8,307 bases of DNA from Candidatus Bathyarchaeota archaeon (GTDB lineage Archaea > Thermoproteota > Bathyarchaeia > Bathyarchaeales > Bathyarchaeaceae): NCBI GenBank assembly GCA_003662715.1, contig QMYO01000056.1:1-8307 (forward strand), written 5' to 3'. This document shows, one piece after another, positions 1-8,307 of this stretch. The stretch's first letter is position 1; each line of letters opens with the position of its first letter. Under the pieces are notes generated by a model, which ran no database searches, was not told where the DNA came from, and saw only the letters and a program-made list of their open reading frames with translations. The translations under genes and the position numbers were made by a program.

Positions 1-2
1 CG

Positions 3-272
3 CCGCCAACTGTTCTTCAGATGCTTGAACGGAACGTAGGACGAAAGATAATGGTGATTTTAGACCCTTCATACGGATTTGAGGGGACATTAGTTGCTGT
101 TACGCATGAACCGCCGGGGATATGGCTGTCCGATGCTGATGCAGTAATAATGCGGGCTACGATAGCGCAGCCAATACCACACGTTGTGGGCAAGGAAGAC
201 AGAAGCGAAGTATTTATTCACCTAAATTCGGTTCAACGCATTGAGGTTTTACATAAAAGTCAGCAGGCTTAG
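3..272 (+). CDS. Sm-like (LSm) fold protein, 5' end outside window
   Basis: The frame is open to the left edge, reading P-P-T-V-L-Q before the first Met at 21, and no Shine-Dalgarno sequence precedes that Met. The gene therefore probably starts upstream and the visible 83-90 residues are its 3' part. From the Met at 21, residues 8-40 (RKIMVILDPSYGFEGTL, then a T-H-E-P-P-G-I-W-L stretch) look like the Sm1 strands of an LSm protein: a basic start, V-x-L-D-P, F-x-G-T-L and a short turn. Residues 64-77 (VFIHLNSVQRIEVL) would be the Sm2 strands, but the usual R-G-[DN] signature of RNA-binding Sm2 is absent. By family knowledge LSm proteins form rings that bind RNA; this copy is divergent, so RNA binding is uncertain. 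It converges on secG and ends before a T-run. Another small beta-barrel remains possible. Confidence 0.55.
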   Translation, partial: PPTVLQMLERNVGRKIMVILDPSYGFEGTLVAVTHEPPGIWLSDADAVIMRATIAQPIPHVVGKEDRSEVFIHLNSVQRIEVLHKSQQA

Positions 273-296
273 ATTTCAGAATAAACCGCGCTAATA

Positions 297-309
297 TTTT
301 TTGTTTTTT
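297..309 (+). terminator. T-run terminator after the Sm-like gene
   Basis: Six T, one G, six T begin 24 nt after the stop of the Sm-like gene and lie next to the end of the convergent secG gene. No hairpin precedes them. This matches archaeal intrinsic termination at oligo-T tracts. Confidence 0.5.
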
Positions 310-310
310 G

Positions 311-508
311 CTAAAATGGAAGGGCACCTTGAGCGTAGAGAGTTGCTAAGACACTAGCGATTATTAATCCCACTGCTAGGACCATAACTAGTTCAGGCCT
401 TATCCTAATACCTTGAGTTTCCTCTTCGAAGAAACGGAGTAAGCCAGCGCTCGCGGCGGGCATGGGAGCGCTTCTTTCCCGCTTCTTACTTCTCTTACTT
501 TTGCTCAT
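311..508 (-). CDS. secG: Preprotein translocase subunit Sec61-beta (SecG)
   Basis: This is the small third subunit of the archaeal SecYE-beta protein-conducting channel in the cytoplasmic membrane. The 65 residues follow the archaeal Sec61-beta plan. There is a Lys/Arg-rich cytosolic start (residues 2-12). Next comes the family signature P-M-P-A-A-S-A-G-L-L-R-F-F-E-E-E (about 15-30). A short amphipathic link (G-I-R-I-R-P) leads to a single C-terminal membrane helix at about residues 40-60 (VMVLAVGLIIASVLATL). Length is normal for the family. The ATG at 508 has a good ribosome-binding site (GGAGA on the minus strand, 516-520, 7 nt spacing). The gene is divergent from the DUF488 gene, with 91 bp between the start codons; I see no convincing TATA box there. 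This subunit is an archaeal/eukaryotic type and is the best taxonomic clue in the window. Confidence 0.93.
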   Translation of the reverse strand: MSKSKRSKKRERSAPMPAASAGLLRFFEEETQGIRIRPELVMVLAVGLIIASVLATLYAQGALPF

Positions 509-584
509 GGAGTTGTCTCCGAAAATCTATAACAGAAGAGTTTCTCTAATTAATGTTACGTTGTTTCCATATTTCTATTAGGAT

Positions 585-589
585 GGAGG
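585..589 (+). promoter_or_regulatory. Ribosome-binding site supporting a TTG start
   Basis: GGAGG sits 10 nt before the TTG at 600. It decides the DUF488 start, since no ATG lies nearby in that frame. Confidence 0.7.
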
Positions 590-599
590 TTAACTAGGA

Positions 600-1043
600 T
601 TGAATAAGACTGTTTTATGGACGATAGGACATAGTAACAGGTCTGTTGAAAAATTCTTGAAGCTGCTTAAAGAGCATAATGTCAGAATTTTGGTTGACAT
701 ACGCAGATTTCCAACTTCTAAGGTTGAGCATTTTAAGAGAGAGGAGATGGAACAGTGGTTACCTGAACATGGAGTTGAGTATGTTTGGTTTGGCAAGGAG
801 TTAGGTGGTTATCGTCGAGGCGGATATCAGGCTTATCTGAAGACGAAAACATTTAGAGAAGGCATAGAGAGGCTTCTTCAACTTGCTAGAAAAGAGAGGG
901 TATGTATCATGTGTATGGAGAAAAATCCTAAGTATTGTCATCGCCGTTTTGTTTCAGCGTATTTAGAGAGGAGAAACGTAGAGGTGAGGCATATTCTTGA
1001 AGAGGGACAGGTGAGTCTTATGAAGTTTGAGGAGATAATGTAA
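600..1043 (+). CDS. DUF488 family protein
   Basis: A 147-residue protein of the DUF488 family, whose biochemical role is not established. Family hallmarks are visible in order: T-I-G-H-S-N-R-S near the start (about residues 8-15), L-V-D-I-R-R-F-P (31-38) followed by a basic stretch, G-K-E-L-G-G (65-70), and near the C-terminus M-C-M-E-K-N-P-K-Y-C-H-R-R, with the conserved Cys, Glu and Cys-His-Arg that suggest an active or metal site. The start is TTG at 600. It is chosen because GGAGG lies at 585-589 with 10 nt spacing and because the family's T-I-G-H-S motif follows at the usual short distance. The MazG-like gene begins 14 nt after the stop on the same strand, so the two are probably co-transcribed. 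A link to nucleotide or nucleic-acid housekeeping is possible from that neighbour but is only inference. Confidence 0.88.
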   Translation: MNKTVLWTIGHSNRSVEKFLKLLKEHNVRILVDIRRFPTSKVEHFKREEMEQWLPEHGVEYVWFGKELGGYRRGGYQAYLKTKTFREGIERLLQLARKERVCIMCMEKNPKYCHRRFVSAYLERRNVEVRHILEEGQVSLMKFEEIM

Positions 1044-1057
1044 GCGCTCATTAGGAG

Positions 1058-1357
1058 ATGGATGAGGAGATGGAGATAAGCGAGTTTCAAGACTTGATGC
1101 GGCGAATATATTTTCATCGAGATTCCAAGCGTGGAGCCGCTGGAACGTATGAGTGGCTTGTGGAGGAAGTGGAAGAGTTAGGAGAGGCTTTAAAGGAAAA
1201 GAATACGGAAGCTATTGAAGGCGAGTTTGCCGACGTTTTAGCTTGGTTGGCTTCCTTAGCAAATGTTGTTAACATAAATTTAGAGGGGGCAGCAGCAAGA
1301 AAATACAGTGGTAAATGTCCTAAATGCCATCAGGCACCATGTAATTGTTCAACTTAA
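1058..1357 (+). CDS. MazG-like nucleotide pyrophosphohydrolase
   Basis: A 99-residue single-domain MazG-type protein. This all-alpha family hydrolyses nucleoside triphosphates to monophosphate and pyrophosphate and cleans the nucleotide pool. The metal-binding signature is present: E-E-V-E-E at 36-40, giving the first E-x-x-E, and E-F-A-D at 56-59, giving E-x-x-D, 15 residues later. The family-like N-terminus E-I-S-E-F-Q-D-L-M-R precedes it. A short C-terminal tail carries four Cys (C87, C90, C95, C97) in a C-P-K-C-H-Q-A-P-C-N-C cluster that could bind zinc and is not part of the catalytic core. The ATG at 1058 is directly abutted by GGAG (1054-1057), too close to serve it. The ATG at 1070 (Met5), 12 nt from that GGAG, may be the true start and would give M-E-I-S-E-F-Q. 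The gene lies 14 nt after the DUF488 gene. Confidence 0.85.
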   Translation: MDEEMEISEFQDLMRRIYFHRDSKRGAAGTYEWLVEEVEELGEALKEKNTEAIEGEFADVLAWLASLANVVNINLEGAAARKYSGKCPKCHQAPCNCST

Positions 1358-1361
1358 AAGA

Positions 1362-1373
1362 TTTTTTTGTTTT
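1362..1373 (+). terminator. T-run terminator after the MazG-like gene
   Basis: Seven T, one G, four T start 5 nt after the stop codon, in the space between this gene and the convergent metF. No stem-loop precedes them, as expected for archaeal oligo-T termination. Confidence 0.55.
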
Positions 1374-1472
1374 CAACAATAGACTATATATTATCGCATC
1401 GTCAAAACATCGAAGGCTATCAAGACAAAGCTAAGGTAGAGTGTCTGTGCAGTGGAATGGCTTTTTTTGTGA

Positions 1473-2372
1473 CTAAACTACTCCTGAAGCTTTGATGGCT
1501 TTCACTGTCTCAGCGACTAAGTCTGCTCTTTCTGGAACCATAACGTGGATTCCCGCTACTCCCATAGATGCAATCTCTGAGACCACTTCCACAATCATCT
1601 TTATTCCCTCTTTCACCTTGTCCTCTGCACCCTTCAATCGTTTAATCATTTCATCATGGATGATTACTCCGGGACAGTTTTTAACCATCCACTTCGCCAT
1701 GCCCGCAGACAACAGAGGGGTGATTCCCACCAAAATCTTGACGTCTAAGTGTGAAATCTGGTCCATGAATTTCTCTAGGACAGCGGGGTCGTAAAGGCAC
1801 TGGGTCTGCGCAAACTTGGCGCCCATAGCAACTTTCTTCTCTAACCTAATGATTTCTGGTTCGAGAGGGTCAATGCCCGGATTTACAGCAGCACCTACGA
1901 ACAATTTTGGCGGGGTCTTCAGTTGTTTTCCTGCTAAATCTACTCCTTCTTCTTGCATTCTTTTGATTGCCCATAGGAGTTGAACAGAGTCGAGGTCAAA
2001 CACTGGCTTAGCTTCTGGATGGTCGCCCATTGTTATGTAGTCGCCTGTTAAGACTAGAATGTTTTTGATTCCTAGGGCGTTTGCTGCTAGTATGTCTGAT
2101 TGCAAAGCCAGTCGGTTTCTGTCTCGGCAAGTTATTTGATAGATTGTTTCGAGACCAGTCTGTTTCTCTATTAGGTGGCAGGTTGCTAGGGTGCTCATGA
2201 CGACGCGGCTTGTGGGATTGTCGGTTACGTTGGTAGCCACTACATCGTCTTTAATTAGTTTGGCTCCGTCAAGAAGGTCTTCGATGCTTGCGCTTTTTGG
2301 CGGGGTTAACTCGCCGGTGATGGTGAATTTGGATGTTGCTAGACTTTTTTCTAGAGAACTAATATAACTCAT
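1473..2372 (-). CDS. metF: Methylenetetrahydrofolate reductase, catalytic subunit MetF
   Basis: This is a TIM-barrel flavoenzyme that reduces methylene- to methyl-tetrahydrofolate (or a pterin analogue). The 299 residues match the bacterial-type single-domain length. Visible family features are G-E-L-T-P-P-K with E21 at the place of the catalytic Glu, C-R-D-R-N-R (82-87), L-T-G-D (108-111), A-A-V-N-P (161-165), G-A-K-F-A-Q-T-Q (184-191) and G-I-T-P-L-L-S-A-G near 217. The gene begins 6 nt after metV. Its ribosome-binding site (GAGGT on the minus strand, 2381-2385, 8 nt spacing) overlaps the metV stop region, so translation is probably coupled. Pairing with metV marks the MetVF type of acetogens, which works with MetV rather than directly with NAD(P)H. 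In archaea this step is usually done by the unrelated F420-dependent Mer. Whether the carrier here is folate or methanopterin cannot be read from the sequence. Confidence 0.92.
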   Translation of the reverse strand: MSYISSLEKSLATSKFTITGELTPPKSASIEDLLDGAKLIKDDVVATNVTDNPTSRVVMSTLATCHLIEKQTGLETIYQITCRDRNRLALQSDILAANALGIKNILVLTGDYITMGDHPEAKPVFDLDSVQLLWAIKRMQEEGVDLAGKQLKTPPKLFVGAAVNPGIDPLEPEIIRLEKKVAMGAKFAQTQCLYDPAVLEKFMDQISHLDVKILVGITPLLSAGMAKWMVKNCPGVIIHDEMIKRLKGAEDKVKEGIKMIVEVVSEIASMGVAGIHVMVPERADLVAETVKAIKASGVV

Positions 2373-2378
2373 TTTGAG

Positions 2379-3017
2379 CTACCTCGGAACAATTTGTTGA
2401 GGGGATGTTGAAATCTGATAGTTTCTCGGCTTTCTAAAAGCCCTAAACTTGTCTAGCTGCCCGATGTCTTTCATTCGCTTGTAAATTAGTACCCAAGCAC
2501 AGTCCTTTTCACGGTCTACTTCACATTTTTCATTCATATGACCCGCACAAGGTCCGTTGAGGAGTCCTTTTGGACATCTTGTGATTGGGCAGATGCCTCC
2601 AGTTTCGTCGAGGATGCAGTCGCCGCAGGCTCGGCAACGCTGATAAAACTCTCCTATGTGTTCAGTCATACCTATGAATTTGGTGTTGAGGCCGGGTATG
2701 ACGATTTTTCCGGTTAGGTCAACGAGTGTTTGGACGCCTACTCCGCAGGATAACATGAGAACTGTGTCTGCTGTGTTTAGAGGCGCTGATATGGCTCTTA
2801 GGTCACGTTTTAGCAGTCTTTTGTCGCATGGAGTTTCAAAAACTGCTGTTCCCACTATCTCTTTGTCGCTTAGGAGTTTTGCCATTTCTTTGACTTGTTC
2901 TTCGCCGCCGGTTTGAGCGAGTGTTGCGCAGGTTCCGCAGCCTAGTATGAAAACTTTTTTGCTGTTTGTTAGGCTTTCTTTTATTTCTTCTATTGGCTTT
3001 TTTTCGGTCATTATCAT
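2379..3017 (-). CDS. metV: MetV-type partner of MetF (MTHFR C-terminal family)
   Basis: A Cys-rich protein of the methylene-tetrahydrofolate reductase C-terminal family (MetV). In acetogens it binds MetF and is thought to pass electrons to it. Counting from the ATG at 3017 (212 residues), the N-terminal part has L-G-C-G-T-C-A (C27, C30), E-T-P-C-D-K-R (C64) and L-S-C-G-V-G (C91). A second cluster follows in C-R-A-C-G-D-C (C128, C131, C134), then C143, C148, C157, C165 and C173. These suit iron-sulfur and/or zinc sites. Starts at TTG 3026, ATG 3017 or ATG 3011 are all possible, since none has a clear Shine-Dalgarno. The TATA box at 3061-3068 predicts transcription from about 3036-3041, giving a very short leader, and I prefer the first ATG. 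It is the first gene of the metV-metF operon. Confidence 0.88.
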   Translation of the reverse strand: MIMTEKKPIEEIKESLTNSKKVFILGCGTCATLAQTGGEEQVKEMAKLLSDKEIVGTAVFETPCDKRLLKRDLRAISAPLNTADTVLMLSCGVGVQTLVDLTGKIVIPGLNTKFIGMTEHIGEFYQRCRACGDCILDETGGICPITRCPKGLLNGPCAGHMNEKCEVDREKDCAWVLIYKRMKDIGQLDKFRAFRKPRNYQISTSPQQIVPR

Positions 3018-3060
3018 GGATAACAACTCGGCTTGAATCTTTAAGAAAGTGATTTCTATT

Positions 3061-3068
3061 TATATAAA
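3061..3068 (-). promoter_or_regulatory. metV: TATA box of the metV-metF operon
   Basis: The minus strand reads TTTATATA here, preceded by an A-rich stretch (CAAAAATC) that suits a B recognition element. Transcription about 25 nt downstream would begin near 3036-3041, 10-25 nt before the possible metV starts. That suggests a short-leader or nearly leaderless transcript. Confidence 0.65.
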
Positions 3069-3336
3069 GATTTTTGATTATACGGCGGTCCTTTCTTGGC
3101 GGAATGAGTGAAAAAAAGGAGGTTTTTCTTGTGTGATAGGTTAATGAATGATGTTTTCATGTTAAATTTGTGGGCGGCTATTGTTTTTCGTTAGGCTGGT
3201 GTGAGCACATTCTTGTATAGATGCTACAGTAGTTCCTTTGTGGTGATGCGGGTAAGGTGTATTTTTAGGTGAAGCGAAAATTTTATTGATTATTGTTGTT
3301 TAAGAAGTGTTGGCGTTACAGATTTTTGTGGATGGA

Positions 3337-3356
3337 AAAGACTTCTAGAAGTTTTT
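3337..3356. repeat. Inverted repeat 1 upstream of the solute-binding operon
   Basis: ACTTCTAGAAGT (3341-3352) is a perfect 12-bp palindrome. With flanking A and T runs it extends to 20 bp with a single mismatched pair (G3340/T3353). Possible operator site; it lies about 105 bp before the start codon. Confidence 0.5.
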
Positions 3357-3367
3357 GGGATAAAGCT

Positions 3368-3388
3368 TAAATTGTCGTTTACAATTTA
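3368..3388. repeat. Inverted repeat 2 upstream of the solute-binding operon
   Basis: Perfect 8-bp arms TAAATTGT (3368-3375) and ACAATTTA (3381-3388) are separated by CGTTT. This is a typical size for a dimeric regulator site. It overlaps a possible TATA-like TTAAAT. Confidence 0.5.
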
Positions 3389-3396
3389 GAATGTTG

Positions 3397-3422
3397 TGAT
3401 CTAGAGGTTATACTCTGGATCA
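3397..3422. repeat. Inverted repeat 3 upstream of the solute-binding operon
   Basis: Arms TGATCTAGAG (3397-3406) and CTCTGGATCA (3413-3422) are separated by GTTATA. They pair fully as RNA, with one G-U. The element could be an operator or a hairpin at the 5' end of the transcript. An A-rich tract follows, so it is not an intrinsic terminator for the plus strand. Confidence 0.5.
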
Positions 3423-3459
3423 AAAGTTAAAAAAAATAAAAAATTAGAGAGGGAAAGGA

Positions 3460-5631
3460 GTGTTTCAAAAGAAATTTGACAAGACATTGATTTCTGTGGT
3501 TTTAGCCTTTACAATGCTAGCTAGTGCATTAGCAGCAAGCTATGTTACACCTACACGCGCACAACCAAACTTCACTTTGTGGGCAACAATTGGTCCGGAT
3601 CCTTACTGGGGATATTATGGTGGATACTGGGATATCTGGTATTCGTTGCAACCTGAATGGGCAAAAATCGGCGTCGACTTGCAGCTGTATTTCCAAGGTG
3701 ACATCTACTCCAACTGGGAGCTAATATGGAGCTCCAGTGTGCCGGAGGGCGGTTGGCCCGGCGGCAAACCACCACACGCATGGGACCTCACTATGATGGA
3801 ATGGTGGTTGCAGCCTCAAGGAATGCTATGGCAGGATGGTATAATTCTGGCTAAAAACATAATAAATGGGCCGATGGGTGGCTGGAACATCTTTCCATAC
3901 TTAAGTCAAAAGAGTGATGAGTACTATTGGGGAATGCAAACAAGCTTTGACGTTGACACTAGGAAAGCATACGCTGATGCTTGGCAAGTAGAATTGATGC
4001 ATAACCCTCCAATAATAAACATCTACTCTCCGCACGTGTACGAGGTTCACGGTTCATACATGCAGGGCTACGATCCATACTGTTTTGAGACTCAGCCTTC
4101 ACATATACGCATTAACCGAACCCTAGTGGACTCCTTACATAATCAGGGGCTATTATCAGACACCGCTTACACCCGACTCTACAATGATAAGACACTTGTC
4201 GCCGGAGCAGCTGAAGCTTGGTGGAGTTATCTAAATCCTTGGTGCGACAGCTATACCGAAGAGAGTTTCATGGCTCTAATGCATGTGCCTCTGTACTTCT
4301 TTGATATTGTTCCTTGGCCAGCTGAAGGCGAAGTTGTGGATGCATCAACTTATGCTATTACGCCTCGGTTAGCAAGCGATATGCCACAGGATATAGGATG
4401 GGAAACTGATCAGGACGGCGAAGATGTCTTTCGAGTGAGAATTCCTCTAAGACAGGGTGTTCTTTGGAGTGATGGCCACGAATTCGATGCTCAGGACGTA
4501 GTTTGGACCCTTAATGATATCGTCCTTTATCACCCGGAGGGAACGTCCGCGACCGGTGACACCGCACCTATTATTAAGCGGGCAGAATACATAGGCAATT
4601 ACACGCCTGGAGATCCAAACTATAATCCTTACGCAGTTGACCTAATTCTCCATGACCACTACGTTGATCTTCCACTGATCCTTGCGAACGACTGGGGTCC
4701 AGGCATTATGCCTTATCACTATTTCGGCGGTGTAGCGCCATCGTCGACTGATCCGGTGGTCACATCCTTCGATAAGGCGAAACTTGTGCCGGTTTTAGGC
4801 CCATTCAAGTTAGACTCTGAAGGTACGCCGGCTGGAAACTCATGGATTAAGCTGGCAAGAAACCCGCTTTACTTCGGATATGACCTTGGCTGGGGACCCT
4901 ACGACATTGACTACTGGATCTTCGAATATGTTCCCGACGCAAGTACAAGACTGTCAAAACTACTATTACACGAACTCGACTATGCTGGATACCCAACAGC
5001 TCCAGTTGAAGTTTTCGAGGAATTAATTGGACAACCTGACTTAACAGTAATAAAAACCTTTTATCCCGCAGTTAACCCGATATGGATGAATTTCAACAAT
5101 CCACAACTCAGCAACAGATACGTGCGGTTAGCTTTAGCTCATGCCATCCCATACGCAGACATATACAAAGACATACTGCCCAGCTGGGGCATCACCGATC
5201 CAGTTCCTGGAGGAAGCTTCATCCATCCATGGCAATACTATCAAGGCGTACAGCTCTTCAACACTGAGATGGGCCAGTATACCTACAACATTACTCGGGC
5301 TCAGCAGTACCTAAACATGTGGTTTTACGCCCAAACCGGTGAAGATTACACTAATGGACCCGTTGGCGACGCCGACTTCAGCGGCATAGTGGACTTAGAC
5401 GACCTCTGGTACTGGCTGGAAGAATATGGAAACGCACCATACACTCGTCCAATAACTTGGTTAGACCCATCTTGGTACACCACCTATCCATGGCCAGCGG
5501 ACAGTGGACCAATCGCTCCTGGCAACGACATAGACCCTGACTTCGACAATAGTGGAACCGTAGGTATTGAAGACTATCCGCTGTGGCTTGCAAACTTTGG
5601 AAGAGAATATCCATTCCCCGGAGCCTGGTAG
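3460..5631 (+). CDS. Secreted oligopeptide-type ABC solute-binding protein, permuted lobes, C-terminal dockerin
   Basis: A 723-residue exported protein of the SBP_bac_5 family, expected to capture peptides or similar solutes outside the membrane. A basic start (residues 3-8) and hydrophobic core (10-26) form a signal peptide, cleaved near A25/A26 or A34; there is no lipobox Cys. Residues 38-205 (EWAKIGVDLQLYF, DTRKAYADAWQ around 168, N-P-P-I-I-N-I-Y) look like the segment that normally ends this family. Residues about 245-625 then carry the normal beginning: the signature I-P-L-R-Q-G-V-L-W-S-D-G at 328-339 with D-A-Q-D-V-V-W-T, and Y-N-I-T-R-A-Q-Q-Y-L at 609-618, where the lobe normally continues. 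Instead a dockerin-like pair of calcium loops follows (D637-D648 and D694-D705). The start is GTG 3460; GAGAGGG at 3447-3453 precedes it by 6 nt. The next gene is 2 nt downstream. Confidence 0.85.
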   Translation: MFQKKFDKTLISVVLAFTMLASALAASYVTPTRAQPNFTLWATIGPDPYWGYYGGYWDIWYSLQPEWAKIGVDLQLYFQGDIYSNWELIWSSSVPEGGWPGGKPPHAWDLTMMEWWLQPQGMLWQDGIILAKNIINGPMGGWNIFPYLSQKSDEYYWGMQTSFDVDTRKAYADAWQVELMHNPPIINIYSPHVYEVHGSYMQGYDPYCFETQPSHIRINRTLVDSLHNQGLLSDTAYTRLYNDKTLVAGAAEAWWSYLNPWCDSYTEESFMALMHVPLYFFDIVPWPAEGEVVDASTYAITPRLASDMPQDIGWETDQDGEDVFRVRIPLRQGVLWSDGHEFDAQDVVWTLNDIVLYHPEGTSATGDTAPIIKRAEYIGNYTPGDPNYNPYAVDLILHDHYVDLPLILANDWGPGIMPYHYFGGVAPSSTDPVVTSFDKAKLVPVLGPFKLDSEGTPAGNSWIKLARNPLYFGYDLGWGPYDIDYWIFEYVPDASTRLSKLLLHELDYAGYPTAPVEVFEELIGQPDLTVIKTFYPAVNPIWMNFNNPQLSNRYVRLALAHAIPYADIYKDILPSWGITDPVPGGSFIHPWQYYQGVQLFNTEMGQYTYNITRAQQYLNMWFYAQTGEDYTNGPVGDADFSGIVDLDDLWYWLEEYGNAPYTRPITWLDPSWYTTYPWPADSGPIAPGNDIDPDFDNSGTVGIEDYPLWLANFGREYPFPGAW

Positions 5632-5633
5632 CC

Positions 5634-6767
5634 ATGACGCAGAGAAAACTGATAATGCCCATCCTACTTGTGCTAACGTTGAGCATCCTAAGCCCAGCCT
5701 TAATACCGACCTCAACTGGCTATAACTCACCAGTAATCTACATATACCCTGATTCAATAATAGCGGTAAATGCAACACAGATCAGCATAGATGTGATGAC
5801 GAACTACACTGGAAATGACATTTGGGGCTACGAATTCACCCTAACCTATAACCCATTAATCTTAAGCGGCGATAGCGTCACCAACGGAAATGTAACAACG
5901 CAAGGCGATGTAACCTTTATTGCTGGAACATTCGACAACAATGAAGGCAAATTAACCCTGACATCAGCATACAGTCTTGACCAAACCACCACGCCACCAA
6001 CTCCAGTAAACAACACTGGACCAGGAATCCTTGCTACTGTAACCTTTAATGTCACGGGCACCGGAGAAACACCGATAACGCTTGGACCTGAAACCAAACT
6101 TAAAAGTGTGGACGGAAGCAACATCGTAGATGGACCCTTCAATCTTGTACATGGCTACTTCCGTAACATAGAACCTGCGCCCACACATGATGTGGCAGTA
6201 ACCGGCGTCACATTCCACCACGAAATCACAGCAACCTCAACATACAACGAAACGCAGAGTCTAATCTATATTGAAGCCACCACCGTAAACGAAGGCGACG
6301 TAACTGAAAGATTCACTGTGGAAATCTACTATAGACTTGCAGGGTGGCTTGAACTCGTGAAGGCAGAAACAATAAACGTGGCGGCTGGAGACACCGTGGT
6401 GGTTACTGGAGGATTGAACACAACCGGTTTTCCAGTGGGCTACCTAACGATCATAGTTGAAGCAAGCGAAGTGTACAATGAAACTGAAACAATTAACAAT
6501 ACCTACAGTACCACATTGCTAATTAAAATGGTAGGAGATGTCCAAGGTGACCCAGAGGACCCAGACCCCACCATCGGCGACGGCGACGTAGACAAATATG
6601 ACTTCGGCACCTTCGCTTATCATTTTGGAAAGAACTATCCGAACACGGACTACAATCCTGAATGTGACTTTAACAGAGACGGAAAAATTGACAAATATGA
6701 CTTCGGCGATCTCGCCTATTGGTATGGCAAATCGATAAGTGCTACCCCACCGTACCCGATATTATAG
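5634..6767 (+). CDS. Secreted cohesin-like / CARDB-like / dockerin-like protein
   Basis: A 377-residue exported protein. The ATG at 5634 is chosen over an upstream in-frame ATG (5583) because it gives a signal peptide at once (M-T-Q-R-K-L, hydrophobic residues 6-24), has GGAG at 5620-5623, and lies 2 nt after the previous stop. Residues about 33-173 resemble a cohesin: V-I-Y-I-Y-P-D-S start, W-G-Y-E-F-T-L-T-Y-N-P-L-I-L, G-I-L-A-T-V-T-F-N-V and a closing D-G-P-F-N-L-V-H-G-Y-F. Residues 186-297 resemble a CARDB beta-sandwich (HDVAVTGV start, ETETINNTY end). Residues 300-367 form a dockerin-like pair of calcium loops. Loop 2 is canonical (D345, N347, D349, G350, D353, D356); loop 1 has a D/P-rich insertion. 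Many N-x-S/T sites are present. It may bridge the solute-binding protein's dockerin and another cohesin; partner choice is inference. Confidence 0.75.
   Translation: MTQRKLIMPILLVLTLSILSPALIPTSTGYNSPVIYIYPDSIIAVNATQISIDVMTNYTGNDIWGYEFTLTYNPLILSGDSVTNGNVTTQGDVTFIAGTFDNNEGKLTLTSAYSLDQTTTPPTPVNNTGPGILATVTFNVTGTGETPITLGPETKLKSVDGSNIVDGPFNLVHGYFRNIEPAPTHDVAVTGVTFHHEITATSTYNETQSLIYIEATTVNEGDVTERFTVEIYYRLAGWLELVKAETINVAAGDTVVVTGGLNTTGFPVGYLTIIVEASEVYNETETINNTYSTTLLIKMVGDVQGDPEDPDPTIGDGDVDKYDFGTFAYHFGKNYPNTDYNPECDFNRDGKIDKYDFGDLAYWYGKSISATPPYPIL
6591..6707 (+). repeat. Exact 18-bp direct repeat in the two dockerin halves
   Basis: The 18 bases encoding D-K-Y-D-F-G occur identically at 6591-6608 and 6690-6707, once in each calcium-loop half of the dockerin-like module. 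They cover the loop ends (D320-G325 and D353-G358), the positions that normally face the cohesin. Confidence 0.8.
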
Positions 6768-6791
6768 TCATAACCACCGCTTAACATTCCC

Positions 6792-6800
6792 TTTTTTTTT
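6792..6800 (+). terminator. Poly-T terminator after the cohesin/dockerin gene
   Basis: Nine T in a row start 25 nt after the stop codon with no preceding stem-loop. This is a strong candidate for archaeal oligo-T termination of the two-gene operon that begins at 3460. Confidence 0.65.
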
Positions 6801-6813
6801 AAACTAAACACAT

Positions 6814-6873
6814 GTAAGCTGTAATAATCCACTGAAAAGCAGTGTTCGCTTGGCTAGGAGACACTTAGCTTAC
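6814..6873 (+). other. Possible nested stem-loop in the intergenic region
   Basis: GTAAGCT (6814-6820) can pair with AGCTTAC (6867-6873). A smaller hairpin CACTG/CAGTG (6830-6834 with 6840-6844, 5-nt loop) lies inside. It sits after the terminator and before the next promoter. It may be a structured untranslated or small RNA, or chance. The rest of 6768-6989 shows nothing I recognise. Confidence 0.25.
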
Positions 6874-6989
6874 TGCAAACATGGATTGAAACGAAGATGA
6901 AACTAAAGTTAACTTCCAACAGCGAAACACGGCATGAAGACACTTTGCGTTTTGATGATTTATTATATTTTCCTGTATGCATAACATAG

Positions 6990-6999
6990 TTTATATATA
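6990..6999 (+). promoter_or_regulatory. TATA box of the beta-repeat/cohesin protein gene
   Basis: TTTATATATA lies 56 nt before the ATG at 7056. Transcription about 25 nt downstream would start near 7020, leaving a leader of about 35 nt that contains GGAGAG (7048-7053) as ribosome-binding site. This shows the gene has its own promoter. Confidence 0.65.
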
Positions 7000-7055
7000 A
7001 GAAACATTTAATTTTCATGCACAATTAGAATATAGCGTCACGGGAAAGGAGAGAA

Positions 7056-8307
7056 ATGTCAGTGAAAATGAAGAAATATTCGGTAACGTTTATTATTCTA
7101 CTTATGACCTTGTCTAGTTTAGCGATAATCAATATACATGTGAAACCAGCTCAAGCTCCACCACTCCGCAATTTGACGGTACAATCAACACCTATCGATG
7201 GCATCAACTTCACCATTAATGGAACGTCTTATACGACAAACACGACTGCTAACTTGGACGTGGGCACTAGCAACGTCTTCAATGTTACTATGCCCAAAAC
7301 CTGGATGAATGGTACAGATAAGTACACTTTTATTCGGTGGGAGGATAATTCCACCAATCCGGTTCGCATTATAACTTTGCAATCTGACACAACAATTATT
7401 GCCTTCTATGCACATGTCAAAGTCTATGTTAACCAGCCTCAAGGATACATACCTGGAGTGCCCGAAGGCACTCACTTTCAGATTGACATAATGATTGAAA
7501 CAAACGGATTTGTGGATTTTGGGACGCCTAGCATCTGTGGTTGGAGCGTGGACTTACAAGTTAACCCAGACGTGATTTCCATAAACACGACTGCGCCATC
7601 TCCACCACCCTTCCCACCTCCACCGCCAGACGCAAAAATCATAGGATCAGAAGCAGGCTACGTCATGTATGACTACGACCAATTGCTTGGAAGCCCAAAC
7701 CCTCCTGCACTGCTTCCAGGCACAGCTTATCCTACCACTGGCTACTGGGACGAAATCACAGAGATTTTCGTACCCATGCCTTCCACAGGATTCGGCGACT
7801 ATATGACCCAGACTTACTATGGCGGCCCCGCCCCCCTGGTGACAATTGAAGTAACCTCAAAAAATGAAACCGCCTATTCATTAATAGACCTACTTGACGT
7901 CAAATGGGTTGACGGTAATAACAAATGGCATGATGTTGACAATGTTATAGACGGCCACTACAACCCGCCCCCTCCAAACTACACTTTGACGGTGGAGTCA
8001 ACACCCATCGATGGAATAAACTTCACCATAGGCACGACAACCTACACGACAAATACAACAGTCGAGTTACAAAAAGGAACCTACACTGTTACTATGCCTT
8101 CAACCTGGACGGTTGGCGCTGACCAATATAACTTCGTGAAGTGGGAGAACAATTCCACCAATCCATTGCGCACCATAGATCTAACGTCCAACAAAACCAT
8201 CATCGCCACCTATGAACGCGCACTAGAAAATTATACTTTAACGGTTAATTCGGTTCCTATCGATGGCATCGACTTTACCATTAATGGGACGTCTTATACG
8301 ACAAACA
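7056..8307 (+). CDS. Secreted beta-repeat protein with divergent cohesin-like domain, 3' end outside window
   Basis: One uninterrupted frame of 417 codons runs from ATG 7056 to the window end with no stop. The signal peptide has M-S-V-K-M-K-K, a hydrophobic core (10-25) and likely cleavage after K-P-A-Q-A (34). Residues 40-118 form repeat 1, resembling the divergent InlB B-repeat/Flg_new group (L-T-V-x-S-T-P-I-D-G start, F-x-x-W-E, I-I-A-x-Y end). Residues about 121-303 look like a divergent cohesin (F-Q-I-D-I-M-I-E, C-G-W-S-V-D-L-Q-V-N-P-D-V-I, P-L-V-T-I-E-V-T, D-G-H-Y), with a Pro-rich loop at 180-192. Repeat 2 spans 311-386 and repeat 3 starts at 395. GGAG at 7048-7051 is only 4 nt from the ATG; GTG 7062 (8-10 nt from GGAGAG) is an alternative start. 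The gene probably encodes a cell-surface scaffold or adhesin; repeats and any anchor should continue beyond the window. Confidence 0.75.
   Translation, partial: MSVKMKKYSVTFIILLMTLSSLAIINIHVKPAQAPPLRNLTVQSTPIDGINFTINGTSYTTNTTANLDVGTSNVFNVTMPKTWMNGTDKYTFIRWEDNSTNPVRIITLQSDTTIIAFYAHVKVYVNQPQGYIPGVPEGTHFQIDIMIETNGFVDFGTPSICGWSVDLQVNPDVISINTTAPSPPPFPPPPPDAKIIGSEAGYVMYDYDQLLGSPNPPALLPGTAYPTTGYWDEITEIFVPMPSTGFGDYMTQTYYGGPAPLVTIEVTSKNETAYSLIDLLDVKWVDGNNKWHDVDNVIDGHYNPPPPNYTLTVESTPIDGINFTIGTTTYTTNTTVELQKGTYTVTMPSTWTVGADQYNFVKWENNSTNPLRTIDLTSNKTIIATYERALENYTLTVNSVPIDGIDFTINGTSYTTN
7173..7409 (+). repeat. Beta-repeat unit 1
   Basis: First 79-residue unit of the InlB/Flg_new-like repeat. It begins L-T-V-Q-S-T-P-I-D-G, carries F-I-R-W-E-D-N-S-T-N-P, and ends I-I-A-F-Y. 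It is separated from unit 2 by the cohesin-like region. Confidence 0.75.
7986..8213 (+). repeat. Beta-repeat unit 2
   Basis: Second unit, 76 residues: L-T-V-E-S-T-P-I-D-G start, F-V-K-W-E-N-N-S-T-N-P, I-I-A-T-Y end. It is three residues shorter than unit 1 in the middle and diverges from it at the DNA level more than unit 3 does. Confidence 0.75.
8238..8307 (+). repeat. Beta-repeat unit 3, cut by window end
   Basis: Start of a third unit (L-T-V-N-S-V-P-I-D-G). It shares with unit 1 exact DNA stretches of 15 bp (8256-8270 with 7191-7205) and 19 bp (8289-8307 with 7224-7242), so the two are recent copies or have been homogenised. Confidence 0.8.

Follow-up and report, generated by a model that had tools for sequence, protein, structure and literature searches.

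How could an archaeal solute-binding protein (SBP) that ends in a dockerin-like module be held at the cell surface, close to an importer? The question is raised by a contig of Candidatus Bathyarchaeota archaeon (QMYO01000056.1, assembly GCA_003662715.1), of which positions 1 to 8,307 were analysed and are called the window here. Gene 1 (3460..5631, + strand; 723 amino acids (aa), GTG start) encodes a predicted secreted, circularly permuted SBP of family 5 with a C-terminal dockerin-like module. Gene 2 (5634..6767), which lies on the same strand and starts 2 nt after the gene 1 stop, encodes a predicted secreted adaptor of 377 aa with the module order cohesin-CARDB-dockerin. The original prediction, that this DNA couples a dockerin-tagged binding protein to a cohesin- and dockerin-bearing adaptor in one probable operon, was borne out by the modules found in both genes. 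We propose, as the probable reading, that the two genes provide a non-covalent surface anchor for the SBP, which would be held via the adaptor on a membrane-anchored cohesin near an importer.

The binding protein and its proposed adaptor

Gene 1 has both the profile of the family 5 SBPs (SBP_bac_5, cluster C) and their two-lobe fold, with the canonical chain order, which is usual for the family but not defining, reversed. Residues 54-205 (3619..4074, +) correspond to canonical positions 397-536, the C-terminal part of canonical SBPs that is N-terminal here (HHalign probability 97.3, E 2.3e-11), and residues 294-619 (4339..5316, +) correspond to canonical 96-376 (HHalign E 4.5e-46), with a Pfam PF00496 match at residues 319-619. 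The gene 1 SBP is circularly permuted. This claim rests on the order of the profile matches and on HHalign, since the chain-order profile test is weak evidence for permutation: the natural and re-ordered chains scored nearly alike (126.8 versus 128.8 bits), the N-terminal piece alone scored a low 9.4, and of the control cuts, the one at residue 310 likewise left a single stretch, unlike those at 120 and 400, which yielded two. A model of the protein was compared with DppA via alignments, which missed the canonical C-terminal part. The first 35 or so residues (3460..3564, +) form a signal-like segment with a hydrophobic window at residue 6 (mean 1.61), and no lipobox cysteine was seen on inspection of its sequence.

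The dockerin-like module of gene 1 (5359..5628, +) has two loops, at residues 637 and 694, which are separated by a long insert, and it matches a dockerin from the PDB at 0.0011. Two dockerin loops are present in 39 members of the gene 1 family, window included, and twelve positions of the module are invariant in 26/26 cases. P0001 and its 44 homologs make up 45 rows of the gene 1 family; at least one loop is found in all of them except the truncated P0026, and a C-terminal transmembrane (TM) helix in none (0/45).

Gene 2 begins with a cohesin module at about residues 30-179 (5721..6170, +), which has the cohesin fold and matches the Pfam profile (PF00963) above its cut-off. It continues with a CARDB-like spacer (about residues 180-300; 6171..6533, +) and ends in a probable dockerin with an insertion in the first loop (about residues 299-365; 6528..6728, +). 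This module, which differs in sequence from that of gene 1, matches a PDB dockerin at 3.7e-4 and reaches 18.6 bits against a Pfam cut-off of 22.9; 3/22 members of its family match the Pfam dockerin at 0.001. Pfam revealed no carbohydrate-binding module in gene 2. A TM helix, weak in one case, stands at the end of 12/63 rows of the gene 2 family, and none of these 12 has a C-terminal dockerin loop. Among the other rows, many end in such a loop and some, such as P0084, P0098, P0099 and P0103, have neither. The TM-ended rows that were checked (P0066, P0072 and P0088) contain CARDB and cohesin by Pfam. By these modules gene 2 resembles a monovalent adaptor scaffoldin, with one cohesin and a dockerin that may differ in specificity.

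Pairing of dockerin-bearing binding proteins with cohesin genes

To collect gene neighbourhoods, 256 genomes of the class were searched with the OppB of a relative, Bathyarchaeota metagenome-assembled genome (MAG) bin28 (G002, CP070759.1), and 152 of them gave a match. The set comprised the 114 listed OppB matches down to E 2.6e-53, 111 of them counted, and contained 98 SBP profile matches; 6 that were short or poorly covered and 1 that was open at its 3' end were dropped, leaving 91. The SBP seeds were trimmed of their dockerin tails, since untrimmed seeds also matched proteins other than SBPs. Dockerins were called with an iterated profile; a simple two-loop pattern missed degenerate ones. 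Run over the tails of 1169 open reading frames (ORFs), the profile also matched 10 that were neither SBP nor cohesin. Eleven loci had been chosen first, some because a cohesin had already been seen nearby, and the 100 loci L125-L224 give the result without them. The opp loci of lower rank L108, L111 and L120 stand outside the counts, and kinship was handled via identity clusters under a majority rule.

In these 111 neighbourhoods, 11/13 SBPs with a dockerin have a cohesin gene no further than 8 kb away, compared with 2/78 other SBPs (Fisher p 1.2e-10). The loci L125-L224 alone give 6/8 versus 1/74 (p 5.5e-7). Within 2 kb the numbers are 6/13 and 0/78, with only Pfam-supported cohesins counted for L196, where the nearest candidate is an ORF at 1.4 kb without a Pfam Cohesin match and an ORF with a match lies at 3.5 kb. 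The association is also seen when related SBPs are merged: 9/10 versus 0/37 clusters at 50% identity; 6/6 versus 0/31 at 40% (p 4.3e-7, one mixed cluster); 4/4 versus 0/23 at 35% (two mixed); and 2/2 versus 0/5 at 30% (p 0.048, two mixed), where 7 clusters are left. All 11 paired loci have a match to Pfam Cohesin no more than 8 kb away (E up to 0.0015), which is above the cut-off at 7. Three further loci fall outside the 111 (G165:C137, G110:C152 and G041:C27). One would add an SBP without dockerin or cohesin (p would become 1.1e-10), another, on a contig of 5.5 kb without a cohesin, holds the cut end of an SBP (176 aa, dockerin present) that was left uncounted, and the last has no SBP. Conservation of the gene pair in relatives, on which the original prediction had been staked, was found in two forms: the pair is fused in G002 (see below), and elsewhere in the class proximity to cohesins is far commoner among dockerin-bearing SBPs than among other SBPs.

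Anchors of related binding proteins

What do related SBPs carry at the same end? Among the SBP ORFs of loci L001-L100 that are complete at both ends, 23 permuted proteins have a C-terminal TM helix without a dockerin, 4 have a dockerin without a helix and 1, cut by an N gap, has neither; canonical-order SBPs divide into 10 with a C-terminal helix and 10 without, and three more are of uncertain order. The 91 SBPs of the opp neighbourhoods comprise 58 with a C-terminal helix and no dockerin, 13 with a dockerin and 20 with neither, 19 of which have an N-terminal hydrophobic stretch. None of the 13 dockerin-bearing SBPs has a convincing C-terminal membrane helix. In related archaea, SBPs with such plug-like tails are often found near cohesin genes, and to judge from the sequences the most likely reading is that the dockerin stands in for the membrane anchor that such SBPs usually have.

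The same SBP family also contains a second, different circular permutation (L107:6838-8880, L109:4928-6955, L110:14593-16731 and L196:4145-6421), in which second-half profile positions come first and first-half positions last, with the dockerin at the new C-terminus; the best Pfam stretches agree.

Anchored cohesins beside OppBCDF importers

In G002 (contig C1), two genes whose products end in a TM helix lie directly upstream of oppB, oppC, oppD and oppF. The one next to the importer genes encodes 469 aa with the order CARDB-cohesin-CARDB followed by the helix (Cohesin 1.9e-7). The preceding gene, of 855 aa, has CARDB and a TM helix and matches cohesin by the gene 2 profile only; it probably encodes a second membrane-anchored cohesin. 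The two proteins are encoded at 5981-8548 and 8638-10047 of L103. No SBP gene was found near this operon between 236 and 258 kb, as far as that region is sequenced; an N gap lies at 240.6 kb (L103). The other OppB of G002 (E 1e-30 or better) adjoins a TM-anchored permuted SBP (L118).

At other loci the tagged SBP, the cohesin and the importer stand side by side. The SBP of L105, beside oppBCDF, has the canonical order and a dockerin tail, and 117 nt after it comes a gene for a 237-aa cohesin with a TM helix (Cohesin 1e-7). At L110 and L109, both beside oppBC, a dockerin-bearing SBP is followed after 9 or 23 nt by a TM-less cohesin gene (Pfam 3.5e-4 and 1.1e-4) and, further downstream, by TM-anchored cohesins above the cut-off. 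This is the order of the window plus the receiver that is missing from the window.

The OppB most closely related to that of G002 (62%) is encoded at L112 (G063:C85), where a short open ORF after oppC, at the contig end, matches the cohesin profile.

Fused forms

Binding protein and adaptor also occur as one chain. A single ORF of 1138 aa in G002 (L003:9968-13384) has the order permuted SBP, dockerin, cohesin, CARDB, dockerin. In a second fused ORF of G002 (L008/L102; 916 aa) the SBP is incomplete, and P0036 (1029 aa) has an SBP and a dockerin, then a cohesin match that is weak and below the cut-off (0.0015), and another tail. In the 916-aa ORF (L008:298-3048, about 161-164 kb of G002:C1), the SBP profile skips from 190 to 535 with the frame open, which leaves out most of the middle of the SBP, by deletion or assembly error. 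Given these fused forms, the step from dockerin to adaptor could lie inside one chain.

Gene 3 and neighbouring genes

Gene 3 (7056..8306, +), a repeat protein whose 3' part is cut by the window end, had been put forward as a cohesin-like receiver. That proposal found no support: HHalign to the gene 2 cohesin gave a probability of only 3%, Pfam returned no Cohesin match (PF00963) at E up to 1, and no Pfam family scored above its cut-off. Since some gene 3 homologs have PKD and a hydrophobic C-terminal tail (P0110-P0114) and others a dockerin-like tail (P0070, P0071, P0086 and others), gene 3 could nevertheless encode a surface protein with an anchor. Membrane-anchored cohesins of the kind described above are better receiver candidates.

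A T-run 3' of gene 2 (6792..6800, +) is a possible transcription terminator. Next to the SBP gene, Pfam identifies MTHFR (PF02219) and MetV-type (PF12225) genes (1473-3026) on the opposite strand; this C1-metabolism pair has no bearing on the SBP and cohesin finding. The window MetV (2379-3026) and that of G002 share 90% identity over 211 residues. At the syntenic place in G002 an SBP gene of the gene 1 family points away from MetV and is 56% identical over the first 450 residues; to judge by these two values, evolution has apparently been much faster in the SBP than in the adjoining MetV. The G002 SBP copy there, at about 142 kb of G002:C1, is interrupted by a 100-N gap ahead of the adaptor position. 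Among the nine window proteins scanned with Pfam, none is a plant-wall enzyme with a dockerin tag, as cellulosomes would have.

Discussion

We propose the following chain. The gene 1 SBP would be secreted, bearing a dockerin where its permuted relatives have a C-terminal membrane helix. The cohesin of the gene 2 adaptor would hold this dockerin. The receiver of the adaptor's own dockerin, which apparently belongs to a different class, would be a membrane-anchored cohesin of the CARDB-cohesin-CARDB-TM type, such as the one encoded within the OppBCDF importer operon of G002. Such a chain would gather the SBP at one importer, perhaps along with several others that are interchangeable with it. We infer every binding step in it, as well as the assignment of dockerins to cohesin partners and the delivery of ligand to OppBCDF. 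In a more specific version, put forward tentatively, the SBPs are exchangeable: in place of an SBP of its own, one OppBCDF importer would have sockets in the form of membrane-anchored cohesins, and several dockerin-bearing SBPs encoded elsewhere, some of them via an adaptor, would share it.

Several observations weigh against the proposed anchor. The gene 1 module is divergent, and the Pfam dockerin profile does not match it. Near full-length matches to the window SBP family are confined to 2/256 class genomes (G001 and G002), and a scan of genome contigs gave 3 loci in 2 genomes. The window SBP family has not been seen beside opp genes (L001-L003, L101; G001, G002), and the two dockerin-bearing SBPs of G001 have no adjoining cohesin. 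Among the paired loci, the soluble cohesins adjoining the SBPs of L110 and L109 and the cohesins of L208, L191, L211 and L121 score below the Pfam cut-off, and 2/13 dockerin-bearing SBPs gave borderline helix calls (1.74 at L110, inside the dockerin; 1.62 at L105, with a wider window). The fused forms join dockerin and cohesin covalently, so mutual docking would be superfluous or would occur within the chain. Finally, the dockerin-like tag is not specific to SBPs, because NosD-type beta-helix proteins of G002 (L011, L013) carry one at their C-termini too. These tagged NosD-type proteins are possibly further cargo for the same cohesins.

Some of these points speak for other explanations. The SBP might be docked on a general extracellular scaffold or S-layer, for capture, adhesion or signalling, and not at a transporter. 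The tagged NosD-type proteins and the absence of opp genes beside the window-type SBPs of G001 and G002 favour such a scaffold, as does the discussion of dockerin proteins with S-layer domains in anaerobic methanotrophic archaea (ANME) in the accessible part of PMC9012536; since dockerin-bearing SBPs do stand in opp neighbourhoods and an anchored cohesin lies inside an oppBCDF operon, we consider it unlikely. It is harder still to believe that the gene 1 module is a calcium-stabilised tail or spacer that binds no cohesin, with the adaptor serving other partners. Its divergence from Pfam dockerins, its long insert and its retention in covalent fusions with a cohesin would suit that role, but the near-exclusion between dockerin and C-terminal TM anchor, the strong pairing with cohesin genes and the twelve invariant positions argue against it. 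That dockerin and cohesin act inside one SBP-adaptor unit, of which the two genes are a split fusion with the adaptor's second dockerin as the sole real plug, is suggested by the fused ORFs of G002 and P0036, but is very improbable given the separate genes of the window and the separate dockerin-bearing SBP and TM-cohesin genes of L105, L107 and L220.

The pairing of dockerin-bearing SBPs with cohesins beside opp genes, with the dockerin in the anchor position, points to a concrete role, namely that SBPs are held at the importer. It also supplies small protein pairs for direct testing of what archaeal cohesins and dockerins do. To our knowledge, the non-cellulosomal cohesin of Archaeoglobus fulgidus (PDB 2xdh) has had no role assigned to it. 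Many dockerin and cohesin domains are reported in ANME-1 and ANME-2a in the accessible part of PMC5244752, which describes the function of these domains outside the cellulosome as not known, and cellulosome-like sets appear in Cloacimonadota according to the part consulted of PMC8542988. In the PMC literature, a scope outside which most subscription papers and bioRxiv preprints fall, the accessible texts yielded no description of permutation, cohesin pairing, fusion, anchor swap or opp-operon cohesins for archaeal family 5 SBPs.

Dockerin-bearing SBPs in archaea are already known. Those of ANME, of NikA/OppA and TroA type, appear in the accessible part of PMC9012536, so the view that nutrient capture would be a new setting for these modules is not supported. 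They resemble the present case as archaeal ABC-transporter SBPs with dockerins in genomes with cohesin proteins; the same part of that account differs in that it mentions no permutation, helix replacement, pairing statistic, fusion or anchored cohesin in an opp operon. TpMglB-2, a circularly permuted sugar SBP of 'Cluster Bc', provides a second parallel, and permuted proteins of this kind are remarked to be probably tethered (PMC4990184, as far as accessible). It belongs to another SBP class and has another permutation, whereas gene 1 encodes an archaeal, dockerin-tailed SBP_bac_5 protein. The monovalent adaptor scaffoldins of cellulosomes, as described in the accessible part of PMC4959524, likewise combine one cohesin with one dockerin and connect a tagged protein to a further scaffold; in the arrangement proposed here the cargo would be an SBP and not an enzyme, and the anchor a membrane helix.

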